From a virus: a DNA stretch of 48,290 nucleotides. Every line of letters begins with the position of its first letter. Position 1 is the stretch's first letter. Location of the stretch: IMG/VR virus record IMGVR_UViG_3300011118_000001, positions 1-48,290 of that record; one strand, 5' to 3'. A program made the translations under genes and the position numbers. Below are positions 124 through 48,290 of this stretch, in pieces. The notes under the pieces were generated by a model, which saw only the letters and a program-made list of their open reading frames with translations, searched no databases and was not told the origin of the DNA.

Positions 124-2946
124 GGCTACGGCATATTGAACTGTAAAGAACTTACTGAAAGCATCCCCCACAATCAATGCACCTTTCGGGCCTTTACGTG
201 GTCTAAGAATACTTTTGTTTTCAAGTAAGGATATACTATATGTTCCTCTACCTTTAACGCGCAACGGCCTATCAACATTCAAATGCCAGTAATTTATTTC
301 ATCAGCTAATTTTTCAATGGCTTCAGGGTTAATACGACTATGGGTATAGTTTAATTGGGGAGCTATATATTCTGTTGCTATTTTAACAACAGCATTAGCA
401 AATGCCTTTGCCTTAGGGTTTGCCCTCACCAAATCTAACAACGGTTGAAGTTGTTCTTTGGTAAGAGGACCGGTTTTCTCACCGAAAATTTTTAGACCAG
501 CTTTCTCAATATGACCCATTCCCTCCTCTTGTTGAGCACTCAAATAAATATCAAGTAATTCTGCCATAGACAAACTGAATTTTTTACCATTCAATTCTAC
601 AGTATATTGCTTGGTTTTTGGTTTACCAACCAGTTCACGGCCACGTTGAATCAAGGCCAATCGCGGGTCTAACTGTAAGCTCATTTCCGCTAAATCATTT
701 GCTGTAACTCCGGCTTTATCCAGTGCATCTGTAAGCATATCAGTAGCACCCCGGAACACGGATGAAATCCTATGGATACTCCTACGGTAATTGGTGACAC
801 CAACTTCTTTTAATACCCCTTCTATTGCCCCACCTATTTTACGAATCAAGTGGGGAATACTTAAGTTATCTATTCCAACACCAATAGCTTTGGCAGTTTT
901 TAACAACCCACGTTTTCGCCTTGGGCCTCTACGAGTTATTATCTTTGGTTTCTTTTTGGTCTTACGTTCCAAATTCTCGACCTCGGCCAGAGCCTTGTCA
1001 AAAAACTCCTCGGTTTTAACTTCTCTTGTTCCTATAAACATTGTCTTTTGGTAATCCTCCGGGGGCAACACTCCAGCCTCCCGCGCTTCCCCCTGCAACG
1101 CCGTAACTAATGTTTTCATCTCTTTAGGTGTCATCCCTTTCATTGAGGGTTTACCAATCGTTTGCTGCATGAAGTCCCGGCGTTGGACCTCTTTCCACCC
1201 CAGTTTTTTGGGGAGTTGGTGACCGAGTTTCAGGAGTTTCCTACGACCCATCCGAGGGGATTTGGGTTTGACTGTTACCCCCTCTACCTCAGCGAAATCA
1301 ACACCTTCAGCTATCAAATGCTTACGGTCAATAAACTCTTGTGCCATTGCATCCTTACCGGTGAGTTTAAGTTGACCAGCTTTCTCTGCTATATCCCAAC
1401 CTTCTTGTGGTGATACGAAACGACCAGTATCAGTCACGAACCCAGAACCAGCAGGTATATCAAATTCCTCATTAGTTATAATTCTGCCTGATGCAGCTAC
1501 GTCCCTAAGAATATTAGCATGGGTAGTGCCTGTCAACATCTCACCTGATTTAAGGCGTATTGCTGAACCAGTCAATTTCTCTGGTTCCTCCCCAACCACC
1601 TCTGTTATTTGTGGGGCTTCTGCTTTGGGTAGTACACCAAATGGCTTTCCACCCTGATAGAATCCTACATCAATAAGTTCAAGAGTATGTTCATCTCCCT
1701 CTTGAACTTTTTCTAAAAGACTATCATAAGTTGGCCTATTAAACCCTTGAACAAGGTTGTTTAATCTACCAATAGCACGTTTATCTCCTTCTTGTATTTT
1801 TTCAATAAGGGCATCATATTGTTCTACTTCTTTTTTAATTTCTGGTAAAACTGGTTGTATGGGGGGTTTAGTTTCTATTCTTTCTACCGGCTTCTCTGCC
1901 GTTACCGGGGGTATTTCTACCCCCTCGACCGGAGTTCGGTCAGCCACAGCCCCAGATGGGGCTGGAATGGCCTCTATAGGAGCTACTGGTTCTACATCGG
2001 CCCGGCCTTTACCCTTAACAGCCCCGGCCACTCCACCGGCCACGCCCGGTATCAGACCTATCATAAACCCAAGATATGCTTCCTGAGCACGCCTGTCGAT
2101 GAATCCAGCAACCCCATCAGGAACACTCTTATCATATACCAATTTAGCCGTTATCTCCTGCCACGCCCCCTGTGATAGCTCCTCAAGCCCCTCCTGAGCC
2201 GCAATCTTAATAACATCCCATGTAGCATGTCGTAACCCCCGACCAGCTACCTTCTGAACTGTGCGATTCAACAGGGCGTTATATGAACCCTTACCAATTT
2301 TGAGTAATCCTTCCAACTGCATCTTCTCAAGAGCAGCAGACACAGAACCATATATGGCATACGTTATGGCCGCATCATCCTCAGATGCCCCATCCTGAAT
2401 AGCTTGGTCATATGCCTGTTGTCCCTCAGTCACATACATCATCCCCATTGCGAGGTTGGGGTGGCCAGCCAGAGTAAGGATACCAGCATTGACCAAAACA
2501 GGCATAGATTCAGCAACGGCTATACCCAATTTATCAGGGCTTATGAGAAGATCAATAAAGTTTTTAGGTGGATCAGATGCCCATTCAGGATGATTTTGTT
2601 CGATTATCTTGCGCCCAATCTTATGTAGCTCTGCTGGTTTGTTCAACCAATTGGCTACTTTATCAAAAGTTTGTTCTGAATCGGCCATCTGTTCCCGGAG
2701 TATTGCCTGACGTTCCGGGTCAGTTTCTCTGAGCACGGCATTGGCCATATCAAACTGACGAACAAGACCATACTGTTTCACAGCCATCGCAGGGGCGCGT
2801 AGAATGGCTTGTCCAACAGCCATTTCACCTTTGGCAACTGCACCCACAGCCCGTTCTGGGAACGAGGCACGGGTTATTGGGGCTTGTTCCCAAGCCGGTC
2901 TTTGTTCTGGTTCTACTATCGGTGCTTCTTCCCACTTTTTTGCCAT
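1..2946 (-). CDS. Large polyvalent/ejection-type virion protein, N-terminal 982 codons
   Basis: The gene starts at the ATG at 2946 and runs off the left edge; it continues in the same frame at 48167-47037, giving 1358 residues. The start follows the upstream stop in a TAATATG arrangement. The protein opens with a charged segment, then helical stretches. A Gly/Ala-rich hydrophobic segment (GLIPGVAGGVAGAVKG) lies near residues 290-312, followed by a Pro-rich linker (about 315-365) and a very basic stretch near residue 660 (RKTKKKPK). No enzymatic motif was recognised. Giant helical proteins at the end of a podovirus late operon are usually internal virion (ejection) or large polyvalent proteins carried in the capsid and injected with the DNA. 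That role is inferred from size, composition and position. Confidence 0.6.
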   Translation of the reverse strand, partial: MAKKWEEAPIVEPEQRPAWEQAPITRASFPERAVGAVAKGEMAVGQAILRAPAMAVKQYGLVRQFDMANAVLRETDPERQAILREQMADSEQTFDKVANWLNKPAELHKIGRKIIEQNHPEWASDPPKNFIDLLISPDKLGIAVAESMPVLVNAGILTLAGHPNLAMGMMYVTEGQQAYDQAIQDGASEDDAAITYAIYGSVSAALEKMQLEGLLKIGKGSYNALLNRTVQKVAGRGLRHATWDVIKIAAQEGLEELSQGAWQEITAKLVYDKSVPDGVAGFIDRRAQEAYLGFMIGLIPGVAGGVAGAVKGKGRADVEPVAPIEAIPAPSGAVADRTPVEGVEIPPVTAEKPVERIETKPPIQPVLPEIKKEVEQYDALIEKIQEGDKRAIGRLNNLVQGFNRPTYDSLLEKVQEGDEHTLELIDVGFYQGGKPFGVLPKAEAPQITEVVGEEPEKLTGSAIRLKSGEMLTGTTHANILRDVAASGRIITNEEFDIPAGSGFVTDTGRFVSPQEGWDIAEKAGQLKLTGKDAMAQEFIDRKHLIAEGVDFAEVEGVTVKPKSPRMGRRKLLKLGHQLPKKLGWKEVQRRDFMQQTIGKPSMKGMTPKEMKTLVTALQGEAREAGVLPPEDYQKTMFIGTREVKTEEFFDKALAEVENLERKTKKKPKIITRRGPRRKRGLLKTAKAIGVGIDNLSIPHLIRKIGGAIEGVLKEVGVTNYRRSIHRISSVFRGATDMLTDALDKAGVTANDLAEMSLQLDPRLALIQRGRELVGKPKTKQYTVELNGKKFSLSMAELLDIYLSAQQEEGMGHIEKAGLKIFGEKTGPLTKEQLQPLLDLVRANPKAKAFANAVVKIATEYIAPQLNYTHSRINPEAIEKLADEINYWHLNVDRPLRVKGRGTYSISLLENKSILRPRKGPKGALIVGDAFSKFFTVQYAVAEYVGMAEELRLLNMVLNYEPIITELESKGYGDVRNNLKQLI

Positions 2947-2947
2947 A

Positions 2948-3865
2948 TTAGGGTTTTGTCCTCACATTACCTTGAGGGTCAGTGAACTGTGCCCCACTCG
3001 GTAGTTTGTCATAATCGGCATCTGTAGATATACTTGGTAATTTTTGAGCAGCAGCTTTTCGTTTACCAACCAATTCTTTGTACAGCAAAGCAGCACCTAC
3101 TGGTGACATTGCTTGTAATTTCACCCTAAGGGGAACTTTGGGTTTCAAAGCCTTGGCCATAGGTGATATAGGTTGACCTTGTGCTTTACGGGCTGCGATA
3201 TTAAGTAGCCGAGTATCATAGGTTCGGGACATAAAAATATCTGGGTCAGTTTTTTTGAGTTGTTTCCACGTTTTAATAGTATGTTTACTACTTGACAAAG
3301 CCTGGTCCCATGCCAAATCAAAAGCCTTTTTCTCAGTAGTATTCATATCAGTATCATAGCCATATTTAGCCCTAACGCCGAAATATTGTTCCTTCAATTG
3401 TTCTGGGTCAGAATATTTACGACTTCCCTTACCCCACCCCCAGGGATTAACTATTGTTGATTCGGCAGCTTCCCCAAATTCTTTAACATAGGACTTAAAC
3501 TCGCCGGGCGTAAACCGTCCACGTTGTTCAGTTGGTTGTTTGGGGAACATAGCTTCGACTGTCTCTTGGGGAGCCACCAACTGCATCATAGCCCTTTGCC
3601 CCTTAATAACATTAATCTGACCGGATGCCATACCTTGTTTTATATCATCGAGTTGTAATTTGGTTGATATAAATTTGAACTTAGATTCGTCATATTCCTG
3701 TTGCATTTGGGCTATGGCTCTGTTGTGAGTTTCTTGTGAGAGACCGTAACCCCTGAGTGTTTTTTCTCTACGTCTATAATATTCCTTGAGTTCGTTTTGG
3801 TTCTTATCAAGGATTTTATAGGGGTCAATACCAGATGACCCTTGCCTGATATGTTGTATAGGCAT
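2948..3865 (-). CDS. Structural protein of unknown function (305 aa)
   Basis: A good AGGAG site precedes the ATG, and the stop lies one base before the start of the giant virion gene, so the two are probably translated together. The N-terminal half is rich in charged helix (near ELKEYYRRREKTLRGYG) and there is a Gly/Trp-rich segment in the middle (NPWGWGKGSRKY). The C-terminal third is basic. No membrane segment or catalytic motif was seen. Its place beside the ejection-type protein suggests an internal virion or tail-assembly role, which is inference only. Confidence 0.55.
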   Translation of the reverse strand: MPIQHIRQGSSGIDPYKILDKNQNELKEYYRRREKTLRGYGLSQETHNRAIAQMQQEYDESKFKFISTKLQLDDIKQGMASGQINVIKGQRAMMQLVAPQETVEAMFPKQPTEQRGRFTPGEFKSYVKEFGEAAESTIVNPWGWGKGSRKYSDPEQLKEQYFGVRAKYGYDTDMNTTEKKAFDLAWDQALSSSKHTIKTWKQLKKTDPDIFMSRTYDTRLLNIAARKAQGQPISPMAKALKPKVPLRVKLQAMSPVGAALLYKELVGKRKAAAQKLPSISTDADYDKLPSGAQFTDPQGNVRTKP

Positions 3866-27929: not shown

Positions 27930-28616
27930 ATGGAATAGATACCAGGTTTTCCAAATTATTCAATAACTAAAAATGGACAAGTATAGTCACACCGTAATAA
28001 AATATGGTTGAAACCTGGTCAACAAACTAAGGGCTATCTAATTGTTAATTTATGTAATGGGCATTCACATGTTCGTACTATTCATCGTCTTGTTCTCGAA
28101 ACATATGTTGGTCCTTGCCCAGAAGGTATGCAGTGCCGTCATTTGAATGGGAATCAATTTGATAATAGATTTGAAAATTTGTGTTGGGGAACACCAAGTG
28201 AGAATGTTCGAGACACTATACAACACGGAACATATAATAACAAAGCCATGACAAAAAGAAACCTATCACATTTTGAAGAAAAAGTTTTACGTGTCTGTCA
28301 CCATGATTTCGGGGGGCTTTCTATTGAGGAAGCCGCAAAGAAATTGGAGTGTTCTCCCCAAACTATTAAATCAGCATTAAAACACGCAAAAAAGAAAGCA
28401 CCGACTCTTTTTCCCATTCTCACTCCTCAACATCAAGCAATATTATTGATGTATGACAAACACATGAGCCGGGCTTCTATTGCTGCGGCGTTGGGTATCT
28501 CTAAACAGGAGTTGCACAAAGAAATAGCTTTTTTACGGAAACATAAGTTTTTATGGAATCGTAAACCAGATCAGTATGACCCGATTTTAGATAATAAAGT
28601 CAAGGAAAAATTTTAA
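27930..28616 (+). pseudogene. NUMOD4/HNH homing endonuclease with two in-frame TAG codons
   Basis: From the ATG at 27930 (GGAAGGG upstream) the frame reads ME-stop-IPGFPNYSITKNGQV-stop-SHRNKIWLKPG and then continues without a stop to 28616. IPGFPNYSI...NGQV is the usual start of NUMOD4-type homing enzymes, and HRLVLETYVGPCPEGMQC with LNGNQFDNRFENLCWGT is their HNH_3 core. Amber codons are at 27936 and 27984, where Trp is usual. The C-terminal half holds two helix-turn-helix-like segments (SIEEAAKKLECSPQTIKSA; RASIAAALGISKQELHKEI). Unless TAG is suppressed, only a shortened protein from an internal start such as the TTG at 28008 can form. Confidence 0.65.
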
Positions 28617-36773: not shown

Positions 36774-37610
36774 ATGCAACGACCCAGATTACTAACCGAG
36801 CAGCTTATATATGGTGATTATCTCGATGTCGCCCCAAAGATGCCATCTAACTCGATTGACTTGGTATTCGGTTCGCCTCCATACGAGGATTGCCGGACTT
36901 ATGGAATCGACTTCAAGCTCAAAGGTCAAGACTGGGTTGACTGGATGGTTGAGGTTGTCCGAGCATCGACTCGTATATCAAAAGGACTTGTAGCGTTTGT
37001 CGTTCAAGGTCGAACTCGTAAGTTCAAGTGGTCGTGTACCCCGACTTTGCTCATTGCTGACCTACATCGGGCGGGGTTTAATGTGCGTAATCCTGTGATA
37101 TACCACCGTTCTGGTATTCCTGGTTCGGGTGGCCCTGATTGGTTACGATCTGATTATGAATGGGTTGTTTGTGTTTCCAAGCCAGGTCGTTTGGTCTGGT
37201 CGGATAATACGGCTTGTGGCCACCCACCAAAATGTCCACCGGGAGGAAATCCATCACACCGGCAAAAAAACGGAAGCAGAACTGGACACGGGCGAAAAAA
37301 AGCCGGTGAACTTATTATTGGTAAACCTTATCTTCCACCCCCAAAATCCAATCCTGGTAATGTAATTAAATGTAAAGTAGGTGGTGGCCATCTCGGTTCC
37401 AAACTCGCCCACGAAAATGAAGCCCCATTCCCAGAGAAACTGGCCGAGTTCTTTATTAAATCGTTTTGTCCACCGGGGGGTATTGTTCTTGATCCCTTCG
37501 GAGGAAGTGGTACATCTGCATCAGTGGCCAAACAGAATGGTCGGGGTTATATTAGTATTGACATAAGACAATCACAAATTGAATTAACACAAAGGAGGTT
37601 AAATGAATAA
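36774..37610 (+). CDS. DNA methyltransferase, SPPY type (278 aa)
   Basis: Residues 34-37 are SPPY (catalytic motif IV, within DLVFGSPPYEDC), and the AdoMet-binding motif FGGSGT lies at 242-247 near the C-terminus. This IV-then-I order marks the beta class. SPPY occurs in N4-cytosine and some N6-adenine enzymes, so the target base is not certain. The middle (PPKCPPGGNPSHRQKNGS) is an exposed, basic target-recognition region. A solitary phage enzyme such as this probably hides sites from host restriction. It overlaps the next gene by 8 bases. Confidence 0.75.
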   Translation: MQRPRLLTEQLIYGDYLDVAPKMPSNSIDLVFGSPPYEDCRTYGIDFKLKGQDWVDWMVEVVRASTRISKGLVAFVVQGRTRKFKWSCTPTLLIADLHRAGFNVRNPVIYHRSGIPGSGGPDWLRSDYEWVVCVSKPGRLVWSDNTACGHPPKCPPGGNPSHRQKNGSRTGHGRKKAGELIIGKPYLPPPKSNPGNVIKCKVGGGHLGSKLAHENEAPFPEKLAEFFIKSFCPPGGIVLDPFGGSGTSASVAKQNGRGYISIDIRQSQIELTQRRLNE

Positions 37611-41381: not shown

Positions 41382-41939
41382 ATGATACCTTTTCCAGATA
41401 AGAAATATCAGGTAATAGTAATAGACCCACCTTGGCCTGTTAAAAAATTAACACACAAAAAACGACCTAATCAAATAACAATGGATTACCCAACAATGAC
41501 AGTAGAGGAAATAAAAAATTTACCTGTTGGTAATTTGGCTAATAGCAGTTGCTGGTTATTTTTATGGACTACACAAAAATTTCTTTTCGAGACTAAAACA
41601 ATTTTAGAACATTGGGGTTTTTCTCATTTGCTTACTATGGGTTGGGAAAAAACATATGGTAAATCTGCTGATATGCCTTTATTTGGGTTTAGGTGGAACC
41701 TTGAATTTATTTTAGTGGGTTACAAAACTAAACCTGAGTTGTGGCCCAAACGCCCATTAATACCCTGTAGTTTTCAAGCTGAAAATATTAAGCACTCCCA
41801 AAAACCAAATAAATTTTATAAAATGATTGAACCACTTGGAAATGCTCGTATTGATTTATTTGCTCGCCAACAACGTGGGGGTTGGGATGTATGGGGAAAC
41901 GAAGTAAATACACCACAACGACCAAGACTAAACCAATGA
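41382..41939 (+). CDS. MT-A70-family adenine methyltransferase (185 aa)
   Basis: YQVIVIDPPWPV contains the DPPW catalytic motif (15-18) of MT-A70-type N6-adenine methyltransferases. SCWLFLWTTQKFLFET, then LTMGWEKTY and NLEFILVGYK are their usual strands. Phage MT-A70 proteins methylate adenine in DNA. The gene starts after a terminator-like hairpin and ends in an ATGA overlap with the primase-helicase, suggesting expression with replication. Confidence 0.75.
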   Translation: MIPFPDKKYQVIVIDPPWPVKKLTHKKRPNQITMDYPTMTVEEIKNLPVGNLANSSCWLFLWTTQKFLFETKTILEHWGFSHLLTMGWEKTYGKSADMPLFGFRWNLEFILVGYKTKPELWPKRPLIPCSFQAENIKHSQKPNKFYKMIEPLGNARIDLFARQQRGGWDVWGNEVNTPQRPRLNQ

Positions 41940-44191
41940 CAATCAACTTCCAAGAGCTTCATAACATATACATACAGAACATACAGATGTTCCCTACCGT
42001 GCTCAAGGAGTTATCGAACCAGTTGGGGGTGTCGATAACTTCCTTGAGCCGGATTGGGGTCGGCCTCAACCCCATGAACGAATACGGGATGTGGGCTTGG
42101 GTATTCCCAGAACGGGATGATAAAGGGAACATAATAGGGCTACTGGAACGGTACGTAGATGGTTCTAAGTTAATGGTTAAGGGGTCTAAACGTGGTTTGG
42201 TTTATGAGGTTAATCATGGAACAAAAGAATATGAAAAGAAAAACTGGGCCAGGGTCTCTACCGAGTTCCCCTGTTCATTATGTGGGAAGGCTGACGGGTG
42301 TATGTATCCCGAAGGAGAATATGAAAAACCAAATGCCATTGTCTGTGTTCATATCTCAGAAGGGTCTGATAGACCCTTATCGTTGGGTTATCTACATATC
42401 CTTGACAAAACCAGAGCAATTCAAAGGGCCAATAGAGGTTCGCTATTGTGCGCTTCTCCCCATCCGGTTTTGGTTGTGGAGGGGGCATCGGATGTTTGCG
42501 CAGCTATGGACTTGGGTTTCACGGCTGTGGGCCGACCCTCGGCAGAAGGTGGGACCAAACTACTTCCCAAACTATTACGGGGTAAACAAACAGTTGTCAT
42601 TGGGGAAAACGATTCAGGGCCAGGCCGGGCTGGGATGGAGAAAACCTTCATTGCACTCAAAGATGTTTGCCAATCTACCAAAATCCTTCCTCCAGGAAAT
42701 GTCAAAGACCTTAGACAATGGAAAATAGCTGGGCTTACCCAACAGGAACTCCTTGATTATATTGAGAAAACAGGTGACTCGTCAATGAGTCCTGATATAT
42801 TTGAGGATGACATAGCTTATACCATAGCTAAGACTTGGTTGAAACAGGATAAAATTGTTGATGGTAAATTATTATTGAGGACATTCCGTAAGGGATTCGT
42901 TCAATTCGATGGACACTGTTATCGGGACATATCAGACGAGCTAATACACGGCCAATTATATGATTATCTCGCTGGGAAAACTTTTATTCATATTGGTGAC
43001 CAAATTAAGGCTTATAAACCAACCCGTGCTAAATTGTATGATATTTTGGATGCCTGTAATGCGTTCTGTCCCATAGAAGCTCAGCCCCCGACCTGGCTCG
43101 ATGATTCCCCCCACCCTGACTCAGAACGATTGATTACTTTTCAAAATGGTATTCTTGATGTGAATGATTATATCAAAGGCAAGGTGACACTCCATAACCC
43201 AACTCCAGACTTTTTCACCTTTACTGTGTTGCCCTATAAGTTTGATGAAAACCTTAACTCAAAAATATGGGAGGAATTTATTAATGACATTTTTAATAAA
43301 GATAAAGATAAGATTGCGCTTCTGGCTCAATGGTTCGGTTACAATTGTGTGCCCGACCTCTCTTATGAAAAACTTATGTTGTTTACTGGTAGGCCCCGAA
43401 GTGGTAAATCTACCACACTCGAGACATTACAGGCGATGCTTGGAAATAACAATTGCTGCGAAACATCTTTTCAAGCACTTGCCGGAGCATTTGGTTATCA
43501 GCCTCTTATTGGGAAACTCAGTGCTGTTATTGGAGATGCCAAATCACCTAAACGTGGTGAAGCGGAAGCTATTCTTGAAAAAATTCTCCACATTACTGGT
43601 GGGGATGCCATTAGTGTTAATGTTAAGAATAAAGCTGCCCTCCCCCTTATTAGACTCTTATGCCGGTTTACCATTGCTATGAACGACCTCCCGGCCTTTA
43701 CCGACCACAGCCGGGCACTGGAATACCGTACCAACATTTTAACATTTAATAATTCGTATGTAGGCCGAGAGGACAGAACACTCAAACATAGACTAAGACA
43801 GGAAGCTGGATCGGGTAAGCTGATTAACTTTGCCCTACAAGGATTGGTCTCGCTCTACAAAGGTAATGACTTTATTGTACCAGCAGAATCAGCCATGACC
43901 ATGAACACATTCCGGGAACTCGTATCCCCCATCGTGGAGTTTGCTGATAACTGTCTCGGTAGTATTGAGAATAATGGCGTACCAGCAGATTACCTTTATG
44001 ACTTATGGAAATGGTGGTGTAAACGAGAGGGTCGGAACGCAGGATTTAAGAGTACGTTTATTCGTAACCTGTTATCAAACATGACCAATGCCTTACAGAT
44101 TAGGGAGGGGAAAATGGGCAATATGGATAGAGTTATAATGGGTGTTAAGGTAACGGATTGGGCAGAGAAAGAATATTTGAAAGGGGAATGA
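41936..44191 (+). CDS. TOPRIM primase / SF3 (D5/P4-like) helicase (751 aa)
   Basis: I chose the ATG at 41936 because it overlaps the previous stop; the longer frame runs inside that gene. A zinc site (C113, C116, C122, C137) precedes the TOPRIM domain (VLVVEGASDVCAAMDLG with E182; VVIGENDSGPGRAGME near 220-235). The C-terminal superfamily 3 helicase has Walker A FTGRPRSGKSTT (483-494), AVIGDAKSPKRG and a sensor-like RFTIAMNDLPAF. It unwinds the origin and makes primers for the family A polymerase. The single-subunit layout resembles P4-like and giant-virus D5 proteins. Confidence 0.8.
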   Translation: MTINFQELHNIYIQNIQMFPTVLKELSNQLGVSITSLSRIGVGLNPMNEYGMWAWVFPERDDKGNIIGLLERYVDGSKLMVKGSKRGLVYEVNHGTKEYEKKNWARVSTEFPCSLCGKADGCMYPEGEYEKPNAIVCVHISEGSDRPLSLGYLHILDKTRAIQRANRGSLLCASPHPVLVVEGASDVCAAMDLGFTAVGRPSAEGGTKLLPKLLRGKQTVVIGENDSGPGRAGMEKTFIALKDVCQSTKILPPGNVKDLRQWKIAGLTQQELLDYIEKTGDSSMSPDIFEDDIAYTIAKTWLKQDKIVDGKLLLRTFRKGFVQFDGHCYRDISDELIHGQLYDYLAGKTFIHIGDQIKAYKPTRAKLYDILDACNAFCPIEAQPPTWLDDSPHPDSERLITFQNGILDVNDYIKGKVTLHNPTPDFFTFTVLPYKFDENLNSKIWEEFINDIFNKDKDKIALLAQWFGYNCVPDLSYEKLMLFTGRPRSGKSTTLETLQAMLGNNNCCETSFQALAGAFGYQPLIGKLSAVIGDAKSPKRGEAEAILEKILHITGGDAISVNVKNKAALPLIRLLCRFTIAMNDLPAFTDHSRALEYRTNILTFNNSYVGREDRTLKHRLRQEAGSGKLINFALQGLVSLYKGNDFIVPAESAMTMNTFRELVSPIVEFADNCLGSIENNGVPADYLYDLWKWWCKREGRNAGFKSTFIRNLLSNMTNALQIREGKMGNMDRVIMGVKVTDWAEKEYLKGE

Positions 44192-44469
44192 TGACTGAAG
44201 AAAAAATAGCCAGGATACTTGAATTAATTGAACAGGAAACAAGGTGTGAGATTATGGCAAGATTTGTTCTTCGTCACCCAAATGATTATACTTGTTATAC
44301 TTACAAACAAATTGAAATAAGGGATCAATTACGAAAACTTGTATTTGGTTCTTCTTGTTTGGTTAAATTAGGTGTACGGTGGGGGCTATTAGAAAATAAA
44401 CCAAGTAAACAACCTAAGTCCAAACGCTCTGTTGTGGGGACATCAAAACGACCGAGATTAGGAGAATAA
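44188..44469 (+). CDS. Small basic helical protein (93 aa)
   Basis: AAGGGGA lies right before two adjacent ATGs at 44188 and 44191. Helices dominate (EEKIARILELIEQETRCEIM, QIEIRDQLRKLVFGSSCLVK) and the C-terminus is basic (KQPKSKRSVVGTSKRPRLGE). The helical layout could be winged-helix or HTH-like, but no clear recognition helix is seen. The function is unknown. Confidence 0.45.
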   Translation: MMTEEKIARILELIEQETRCEIMARFVLRHPNDYTCYTYKQIEIRDQLRKLVFGSSCLVKLGVRWGLLENKPSKQPKSKRSVVGTSKRPRLGE

Positions 44470-44470
44470 A

Positions 44471-44521
44471 ATGATTAAAGGCTTTACTCACGAATCTACA
44501 TATAACAAGGATAAAAAATAA
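44471..44521 (+). CDS. Possible 16-residue peptide
   Basis: TTAGGAG lies 6 bases before an ATG, giving MIKGFTHESTYNKDKK and a TAA two bases before the Dam gene start. It may be a real leader peptide, or just a ribosome-loading site for the Dam gene. Confidence 0.3.
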   Translation: MIKGFTHESTYNKDKK

Positions 44522-44522
44522 G

Positions 44523-45437
44523 ATGAATACTGGGCTAATGTTTAGTTCTAAGCGTACGAATTGGAAAACACCACAGGCGGTATATGATTCTTTGAACAAG
44601 GAGTTTAATTTTGATTTTGATCCATCCCCAGTCGATCCTACATTTAACGGTCTTATTATTGAATGGGGCCAACGTAACTTCTGTAATCCCCCTTATAGAC
44701 GCATATTACCTCGATTTGTACAAAAAGCATACGAAGAAACAAAAAAAGAAAAATTCTCTGTCCTACTGATTCCTGCCAGAACAGACACAAGATATTTTCA
44801 TAAATATATTTTCCCTTTTTGCGGAGGTGTTGGGATTAAAGAGGATGTGGTCTGGGCTGCGGGAATAATAGACGAAGAAGGGTGTATCCGAATACAGAGA
44901 AAATTACCAGCCGATAATAACCATTTGAAATCTTCCTCGTGCAGCCTTATGCTAAAAGTAAAAATGACTCACTTTCCAACGATTCAAAAACTTCAAGATA
45001 TTTTTAGGTGTGGAAATCTTTACAAAGAAAAAAAATCAGAAAATAGAACCAAAGATATTTGGTATTGGAGTGTTTATGGACAAGATGCCTATAACATCCT
45101 TCGACAGATATATCCTTTCTGTATAACAAAAGAAAAAGAAATATTCTTTGCATTGGAGTGGGCGGCTGCTCCAAAACCAGGACGAAAAAGTGGTATGAAA
45201 CAGTTATCGGCCTCTAATATTGAACGGGATAATAAATATTACTGGCTTTTAAGAAAGTTGAAGCAGTCAGATATTGCTGTTCATCCTGTACACACTCAAA
45301 TCAGATTTATACAGGGGAGATTGCATTTTGACGAATACAAGACAGGCGCTCCTTTCCCAAGTTGTATTATAATATTCAATACAAGACAAACTAACGCAAC
45401 CTCCGCAGAACTCAGGAAAAGGAGAAATCAGAAATAA
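44523..45437 (+). CDS. Dam-type adenine methyltransferase with in-frame LAGLIDADG insertion (304 aa)
   Basis: Residues 1-105 follow the phage Dam family (PF05869): MFSSKRTNWKTPQAVYD, FDFDPSP, FCNPPYRR (catalytic NPPY, 55-58) and LLIPARTDTRYFHKYI. The family resumes at residue 261 (RFIQGRLHFDEY, then TGAPFPSCIIIF). In between, about 155 residues form a LAGLIDADG endonuclease: WAAGIIDEEGCIRIQRKLPA (motif at 111-121), a mid-strand MLKVKMTHFPTIQKLQDIF and ERDNKYYWLLRKLKQSD. The insert is about the size of a complete single-motif enzyme, with no room for intein splicing domains or a group I intron core. It may fold as a domain insertion, or inactivate Dam. Confidence 0.7.
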   Translation: MNTGLMFSSKRTNWKTPQAVYDSLNKEFNFDFDPSPVDPTFNGLIIEWGQRNFCNPPYRRILPRFVQKAYEETKKEKFSVLLIPARTDTRYFHKYIFPFCGGVGIKEDVVWAAGIIDEEGCIRIQRKLPADNNHLKSSSCSLMLKVKMTHFPTIQKLQDIFRCGNLYKEKKSENRTKDIWYWSVYGQDAYNILRQIYPFCITKEKEIFFALEWAAAPKPGRKSGMKQLSASNIERDNKYYWLLRKLKQSDIAVHPVHTQIRFIQGRLHFDEYKTGAPFPSCIIIFNTRQTNATSAELRKRRNQK

Positions 45438-45451
45438 CACTTGCAGAGGAA

Positions 45452-45514
45452 ATGAAACGCTATAATGTTAAATTTAACGAACTAACTAAACTTTTTGAAA
45501 GGAAACCAGAATGA
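45452..45514 (+). CDS. Possible 20-residue peptide after Dam
   Basis: From an ATG at 45452 the frame reads MKRYNVKFNELTKLFERKPE and its TGA overlaps the next ATG. The frame stays open a short way upstream (EKSEITLAEE) without a good start. The GAGGA site is too close to the ATG for strong use. It may be the end of a gene whose start was lost. Confidence 0.3.
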   Translation: MKRYNVKFNELTKLFERKPE

Positions 45515-45798
45515 AAACAAAAAAACAAATTGCAAAAGAAATTAAAGCCCTTAAAACAGTTAAGTCAAATGTGCGCCCTATGAGTATATTTGGGGATGAT
45601 AATTTAAGAAGTATTGATGCTCAAATTACAGTGCTTGAAAATAATATGGATAATAAAGATATTTATGAGATGTATGATCGTGCCAGTTCATCAGAATATA
45701 TTTTAGATGCAGCAATCGCGGCACAAAAATGGATTGATGACAAAGAAGATGATGACTGTGAAGGACTGGCTTGCGAATGGCCATTGAAGAAAAATTAA
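45511..45798 (+). CDS. Conserved small acidic phage protein (95 aa)
   Basis: GAAAGGA lies before the ATG. The order KTKKQIAKEIKALKTVKSNV, then RPMSIFGDDNLRSIDAQITV and LDAAIAAQKWIDD recurs in small phage proteins ('I..ei..L..vk..vr..s.FGDdN...IdaQi.vL'). It is helical and acidic. The role is unknown. Between it and the next gene (45799-45849) only a 10-codon frame occurs. Confidence 0.55.
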   Translation: MKTKKQIAKEIKALKTVKSNVRPMSIFGDDNLRSIDAQITVLENNMDNKDIYEMYDRASSSEYILDAAIAAQKWIDDKEDDDCEGLACEWPLKKN

Positions 45799-45849
45799 AA
45801 ATGAAAACAGCAACAAAGTCAACAGATACTTAATAGAAAGGAAACCGAA

Positions 45850-47037: not shown

Positions 47038-48290
47038 CAGTCTATATAACCTCCAATGTGTTTGGGAACTTCCTCTGACTCTACAGCTTTGTTTATCTTC
47101 TCAATCTGCCGAACCGGAACACCCTTCATAGTACCAATACTCAGTATAAGATTCCGGGTAGCGGCCTTAATCTGTACTTCAGCCTTATCTTCTTCACCGG
47201 CCAGGTAAAATGCTGCCGCCTTTGTAGTTTGACCAATACCCAGGAAAAACTTCTCTAACGTATTGGTAGCTAAATTGGAAATGGGTTCCCCCTCGAACTT
47301 CTGTTTTTCTCCGGCCAATATCCTGAACACATTACCCACAACTCGATTCATAAACCCACCAACCACACTAACCATTACGAGGGGAGCAGCTATCATAGCC
47401 CCAACATAATCCCAAATTGATTTACGTTTTCTCCATAGGGTATGACCAATGAAAGTTCGTATCAAGGCTGTCATCATTTGACTACCAATTACCGCGCCAT
47501 AGACTTGTGACCATTTTGCTTTGTCTGTTACTGTTTTCCCACTGGTCTTATATGTTTCATTGGCTGTACTCAACATCATAAGTGACTTCTCAAAATACGA
47601 CCGGAACAAAAATGGTAATCGTTTGATACCGCGTTGAGATGTGTTTATTGACTTGTTCCACTTATCCCAACTCGGTTGAGTGTCCCATAGCTCCTCGGCC
47701 TTATCATTGACCGCATCCCAATATTCTGGAGAATCCTTTTTCAACTGGGTTGTATCCTCCACAAAAGTCTTGGCCACCTTCCAACCCTGACCGAACGCAG
47801 CAAGGTCGGTCATTTGGGCCGCAATACCAGTCTTATTAAGGTCGGCACGTTTACCTGTAAGTAAACGTAATGAGGCATCAAGTTGTCCAGTCTCAGCCAG
47901 TTCCGCACTTTGGCCACCAGCACGATTTCGCATCCAAACTACTGGGTTGTGTTCAAGCATTTCCTTGATTAACTTGGGTGTTGGTGGTACACTAAGTAAT
48001 GGAACATACTTGGAGGCAACCACACCGGCATAATGCCCGGTTGACATATATTGAGAAAGAATAACTTCGGGGGAAAAATGCAACACGGCCCGATATGCGC
48101 CATGTAAAATCTTAGATACTAATTTATCAGCGCGTACTGTAGAACTTTTGGGGTCTTGTACCCATTCAATAAGTTGTTTGAGGTTGTTCCTAACATCCCC
48201 ATAACCTTTAGATTCTAACTCTGTTATAATAGGTTCATAATTGAGAACCATATTCAACAAACGTAACTCCTCAGCCATACCAACATATTC
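47037..48290 (-). CDS. Large polyvalent/ejection-type virion protein, C-terminal part
   Basis: This is the 3' part of the gene that starts at 2946; 48168-48290 duplicates 1-123 and 47037-48167 adds the last 376 residues. The region is helical, with SQRGIKRLPFLFRSYFEKSL, hydrophobic IWDYVGAMIAAPLVMVSVVG and a long helix near the end (TTKAAAFYLAGEEDKA). The pattern resembles C-terminal helical domains of large polyvalent phage proteins (LPD38-like). The hydrophobic helices could insert into the host envelope during injection. Confidence 0.6.
   Translation of the reverse strand, partial: EYVGMAEELRLLNMVLNYEPIITELESKGYGDVRNNLKQLIEWVQDPKSSTVRADKLVSKILHGAYRAVLHFSPEVILSQYMSTGHYAGVVASKYVPLLSVPPTPKLIKEMLEHNPVVWMRNRAGGQSAELAETGQLDASLRLLTGKRADLNKTGIAAQMTDLAAFGQGWKVAKTFVEDTTQLKKDSPEYWDAVNDKAEELWDTQPSWDKWNKSINTSQRGIKRLPFLFRSYFEKSLMMLSTANETYKTSGKTVTDKAKWSQVYGAVIGSQMMTALIRTFIGHTLWRKRKSIWDYVGAMIAAPLVMVSVVGGFMNRVVGNVFRILAGEKQKFEGEPISNLATNTLEKFFLGIGQTTKAAAFYLAGEEDKAEVQIKAATRNLILSIGTMKGVPVRQIEKINKAVESEEVPKHIGGYID
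48168..48290. repeat. Direct terminal repeat, right copy (circular join)
   Basis: Identical to 1-123. See the left copy; it marks the point where the assembled circle was opened. Confidence 0.95.

Follow-up and report, generated by a model that had tools for sequence, protein, structure and literature searches.

An in-frame LAGLIDADG endonuclease domain within a phage Dam methylase gene, with no detectable intein or intron

The stretch of DNA analyzed here (the window) is a viral contig of 48,290 nucleotides (IMG/VR record IMGVR_UViG_3300011118_000001), positions 1-123 of which recur as 48168-48290; this direct terminal repeat of 123 bases makes it probable that the genome is complete. On the plus strand, 44523-45437 is a single uninterrupted open reading frame (ORF) of 304 aa, starting with an ATG at 44523 and ending with a stop at 45437, in which a Dam methylase is interrupted by an in-frame LAGLIDADG insert. 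Other methylases of this phage are encoded at 36774-37610 (N6_N4) and 41382-41939 (MT-A70), and an HNH endonuclease with a sigma-like helix-turn-helix is encoded at 28008-28616.

Pfam Dam (PF05869) matches ORF residues 9-93 with an E-value of 4.6e-11, above the curated cut-off, and LAGLIDADG_1 (PF00961) matches residues 113-195 with an E-value of 9.7e-5 (23.6 bits against a cut-off of 23.1); in PHROGs, the N part is matched as a DNA methyltransferase and residues 107-239 as an endonuclease family. Two further HMMs were made, one from 87 distinct uninterrupted phage Dams and one from 72 phage endonucleases. The Dam model gives two separate matches, one to the N half (E-value, 6.8e-42) and one to the C half at 45279-45383 (E-value, 0.0011), and the endonuclease model, which includes the window's own copy among its 72 sequences, matches 44838-45269 (E-value, 1.1e-41). 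In alignments with uninterrupted Dams, the empty site falls after residue 98 (44814-44816) and before about residue 258 (45294), which gives a Dam N half of residues 1-98 (44523-44816), an insert of about 159 codons in the Dam frame and without a stop (44817-45293, with an uncertainty of about 3 codons), and a Dam C half of residues 258-304 (45294-45434). The first-pass annotation of this locus had read Dam until about residue 105 and again from residue 261, with 155 inserted residues at 44838-45302; the two halves and the in-frame insert stand, and the limits shift to those given here. The endonuclease itself occupies 44838-45269, leaving only linkers of 21 and 24 nt on its two sides.

With the NPPY motif (residues 55-58, 44685-44696) and the conserved Dam motif residues present, the methylase belongs to PF05869, and in the C half the conserved residues R261, F262, R266, F269, and S280 are in place. 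Across both halves, 35 of the 37 near-invariant Dam positions are retained; the exceptions are Glu76 and Cys35, the latter being cysteine in 87 of 87 related Dams and serine here (44625-44627). Alignment with uninterrupted phage Dams does not bear out the possibility, allowed for at first, that all Dam homologs carry the segment as a normal domain: 87 distinct related phage Dams lack it, and it is absent from the 124 Dam loci among the IMG/VR matches listed, 3 of which are cut or frameshifted and not readable through. In these IMG/VR relatives, the helix TDT(R/K)WWHDY is joined to the strand EIRFIKGRL by a direct connection of about 5 residues. A genome scan gave 7 Dam loci, 4 of them uninterrupted as judged by match length. 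The closest Dam relative among the matches listed is about 60% identical in amino acid sequence over the N half, and no closer donor was found.

A sibling phage, L216, carries a Dam without interruption at this locus and with the same neighbors, the nearest flanks being 84-88% identical at the DNA level. Nucleotide similarity between the two phages ends at 44191 and restarts at 45480; since it is lost over the whole of 44192-45479, the entire dam module differs between the siblings, beyond the insert alone. The dam module showed no DNA similarity to isolated phages, and the same insert was found in no relative, either by a single-sequence scan for nuclease relatives or by looking for the left-junction DNA in viral contigs. 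That this junction was not found in other viral contigs (a set from which near-identical records were possibly left out) and that the ORF is known from a single metagenome contig would fit a chimera created during assembly from a Dam gene and a separate, free-standing endonuclease gene. Such an artifact is extremely unlikely, as the insert is in frame at both ends and lies between the correct two Dam halves, the G+C content is 36-38% in all three segments (N half, insert, and C half), and both contig ends carry the direct repeat, as in a complete genome.

In an AlphaFold model of the L216 Dam (mean pLDDT, 89), the insertion site is a turn between helix and strand; among solved structures, this model comes nearest, although at weak E-values, to cap-specific adenosine methyltransferases and E. 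coli Dam. A 397-aa Dam from a giant virus, Clandestinovirus (BFVD A0A8F8PK56), aligns with the model of the window ORF across 352 columns and may also carry an insert. The position in a turn, the frame intact through and past the insert, and the near-invariant residues kept across both halves all argue for a tolerated insertion; they have to be weighed against the serine at position 35, the MT-A70 and N6_N4 methylase genes, which would cover a loss, and the recent exchange of the module that sets this phage apart from L216. It is thus quite possible, although short of an even chance, that Dam is dead through the insertion or through Cys35Ser, the invasion being recent, the frame not yet decayed, and the nuclease the sole remaining activity, if any. 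A dead Dam would be a consequence of the same insertion and is compatible with the reading preferred below, so the probabilities of the two overlap.

The identification of the insert as one in-frame LAGLIDADG enzyme with the motif WAAGIIDEEGC, made in the first-pass annotation, agrees with the Pfam and HMM matches described above and with the predicted structure. The AlphaFold model of the whole ORF has a mean pLDDT of 74 and a pTM of 0.48, which makes the relative placement of the two domains unreliable, and the alignment behind it has a few residues misaligned at the domain junctions. Within this model, the insert folds as alpha-beta-beta-alpha-beta-beta-alpha with extra helices, and Foldseek matches it to complete I-CreI and I-MsoI monomers (TM score of about 0.70 by target length; best E-value, 3e-8); the insert is therefore one whole single-motif LAGLIDADG subunit, modeled as an entire I-CreI-type monomer. 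The LAGLIDADG helix spans 44853-44885, and its catalytic position is E119 (44877-44879). Of 122 relatives, 120 carry Gly and 2 carry Ala immediately before the catalytic acid, where this nuclease has Glu (E118, 44874-44876); the fold and catalytic acid of a LAGLIDADG homing endonuclease are present, and the Gly or Ala before the acid is absent. The counterpart of E118 in I-CreI is Gly19, adjoining the catalytic Asp20, and a bulky charge at this position may harm dimer packing. I-CreI, I-MsoI, and I-CvuI resemble the insert in monomer fold, size, and the acid at the catalytic position, but they are encoded in group I introns, whereas the window has no intron and has Glu rather than Gly before the catalytic acid. 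No close relatives of the nuclease were retrieved by the single-sequence scan. The nuclease does not qualify as a free-standing homing endonuclease gene, as it lies in the Dam frame with no stop between them. An independent internal start is likewise unsupported: the only candidate is a GTG at 44847, and the Shine-Dalgarno-like sequences near it (GGAGG 19 nt upstream and AGAGG 2 nt upstream) are badly placed.

With its odd residue next to the catalytic acid, the nuclease could be one that binds DNA but does not cleave it, and the single intact frame would suit a domesticated nuclease, the product being either a bifunctional polypeptide, like a restriction-modification pair, or a Dam with a DNA-binding targeting domain. 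Domestication is nevertheless unlikely, given one instance with no sign of long shared inheritance and the argument that restriction-modification systems are not known to include LAGLIDADG enzymes (PMC9957025). If anything slightly less likely is the specific form in which the nuclease, no longer cutting after the Gly-to-Glu change, would be retained to bind DNA at a long site and thereby direct or limit methylation by Dam; if true, this would be a natural single-chain targeted methylase.

To look for splicing elements, intein models from Pfam and NCBIfam were searched up to an E-value of 10; none matched in the ORF, and both collections detect the intein of a related phage methylase (L312). 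At Rfam gathering thresholds, even the T4 td and nrdB introns are missed, so only negatives from permissive searches count. A permissive Rfam search (E-value of 10) of 44300-45800 for group I and group II introns returned nothing intron-like, and under permissive settings the td and nrdB introns are recovered with E-values of 2.5e-8 and 5.6e-7, respectively. We therefore rejected a group I intron, for which no ribozyme core was matched while the controls were found, and an intein, which in addition to the missing model match would have no His-Asn at its C junction (VHTQ/IRF) and no room for blocks A, B, F, and G in the 21 and 24 nt outside the nuclease. The original proposal that there is neither intein nor intron here, nor space for either, is upheld by these searches. 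An element of unrecognised type, such as an atypical intron or an intein that is split or very short, might still remove the insert, and two features are in its favor: spliced elements typically sit in conserved stretches, as this insert does, and residue 100 is Cys, like the first residue of many inteins. We consider this very unlikely in view of the unmatched models with working controls, the junction and the spare sequence just described, and the insert RNA, which appears unstructured, folding no better than shuffled sequences (z, 0.51).

LAGLIDADG endonucleases had been taken to reside only in introns, inteins, or free-standing genes, a view that does not hold for phage methylases. Nine mycobacteriophage methylase sequences, including Taj gp79, have a LAGLIDADG domain (PMC9957025), and the endonuclease of the F-cluster mycobacteriophages was reported as apparently standing alone, neither an intein nor an intron having been found for it (PMC11855218). 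In Taj gp79, the LAGLIDADG domain is 139 aa long, in frame, and predicted to have its own fold (PMC9957025, PMC11855218); our translation of it contains PF01555 and PF00961, and a permissive Rfam search found no intron in it. Like the window ORF, it has a single-motif LAGLIDADG domain of similar size in the methylase frame and no detectable intein or intron; it differs in its host methylase (N6_N4_Mtase, PF01555), in its insertion site, and in its nuclease, which is 22% identical to that of the window. The features of the Taj gp79 kind are all found in the window: an in-frame LAGLIDADG domain with both methylase parts, no splicing element, and homologs free of the insert. The Taj-type insert is common to nine related phages, whereas the window insert is a single instance whose sibling phage has a different, uninterrupted Dam; clade-wide sharing is a reported property of the Taj group and is not essential to the architecture. 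A second counterexample is L107 (IMGVR_UViG_3300035701_000088), in which ORF 653-2263 is an N6_N4 methylase with an in-frame lone LAGLIDADG domain at residues ~224-363; dozens of homologous N6_N4 methylases lack this insert, and the flanking residues are adjacent in them. The same site holds an intein in L312 (1864-3552) and a gene-splitting HNH-like ORF in L327 and L328. The window ORF thus adds to a rare class of insertions whose first description dates from 2023. Both its host family (PF05869) and its insertion site are new to this class, and we could find no earlier case in a PF05869 Dam.

Nucleases have also entered or settled beside phage methylase genes in other arrangements. In L057, an unrelated phage (IMGVR_UViG_3300037247_001088, 2827-3874), a related nuclease with 31% identity lies antisense at nearly the same Dam site; there, the N half of Dam is fused at ...TDTRW to a C half that is divergent, and a canonical C half (RWWHEYAMRAKEIRFVRGRLKF) lies beyond the nuclease. 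Fungal mitochondrial mobile ORFs, known from atp6 of Allomyces and Glomus, bring a replacement gene end with them (PMC3630166), and L057 looks like a bacterial-virus version of such elements. The atp6 elements resemble the phage cases in placing an endonuclease in a coding gene without an intron or intein, and the duplicated gene end is seen in L057; the window differs in having no duplicated Dam C half and in holding its nuclease in frame between the halves. The ShiLan domain (PMC11855218) is likewise a splicing-free, in-frame-open insertion in a phage methylase, but there the nuclease is an HNH enzyme in another frame, whereas here it is a LAGLIDADG enzyme in the Dam frame. Much like the ShiLan domain, the methylase of L335 (IMGVR_UViG_3300009499_000003, 1363-3258) has an insert that stays open in the methylase frame and conceals an HNH-like ORF (1913-2413) in a different frame. 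In L331 (IMGVR_UViG_3300033388_004813, 607-3498), a 964-aa methylase ORF reads through an antisense LAGLIDADG_3 gene (688-1572, minus strand) and seems to hold an intein further on. A nuclease gene lies directly upstream of, and overlaps, the dam gene in L072; nuclease relatives are found just upstream of C5 methylases in L084, L089, L126, and L129, LAGLIDADG genes are nested out of frame in C5 methylases of L134 (1791-3281) and the Gordonia phages L047 and L049, and other nuclease relatives adjoin thyX and capsid genes. Among the matches listed by these pattern-limited scans, phage methylases have been invaded repeatedly, by several non-standard ways, which is no claim of enrichment in methylase genes.

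The explanation we favor, with a probability of about 0.78, is that a homing endonuclease of the free-standing type settled in a surface turn of Dam and that the two are translated as one unspliced chain. The presence of two Dam halves around a complete LAGLIDADG domain in a single open frame counts for this reading. The invading element would have been a selfish LAGLIDADG homing endonuclease with a single motif and the I-CreI fold, of the type that is free-standing in phages. It would have landed in a PF05869 Dam, in frame and in the sense direction, at the turn that connects the helix ...TRYFHKYIF to the strand TQIRFIQGRL. We infer that no splicing follows and that a 304-aa polypeptide is made, with the endonuclease bulging from the Dam surface turn. 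Spread would occur by cutting of empty dam genes at this conserved stretch and copying of the nuclease during repair; that the insert is a single instance, with no relative sharing it, counts against this reading and leaves homing and lasting maintenance putative. Tolerance by Dam would come from the kept frame and the permissive turn, and any loss of Dam would be softened by the other two adenine-type methylase genes of the phage. Read from the sequence, the substitutions Cys35Ser (Dam) and Glu118 (nuclease) are hints that at least one of the two activities may be impaired or fading. Fading activities are expected late in the homing cycle.

This Dam, Taj gp79, and L107 show the same lone in-frame arrangement in different methylase families, and L057 would represent another escape, by antisense insertion beside a duplicated Dam C half. 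With a methylase of about 145 residues holding a nuclease of about 159 residues in one turn, the window ORF is a small, testable case, and phage methylases seem well suited to studying how selfish nucleases persist in genes without splicing.
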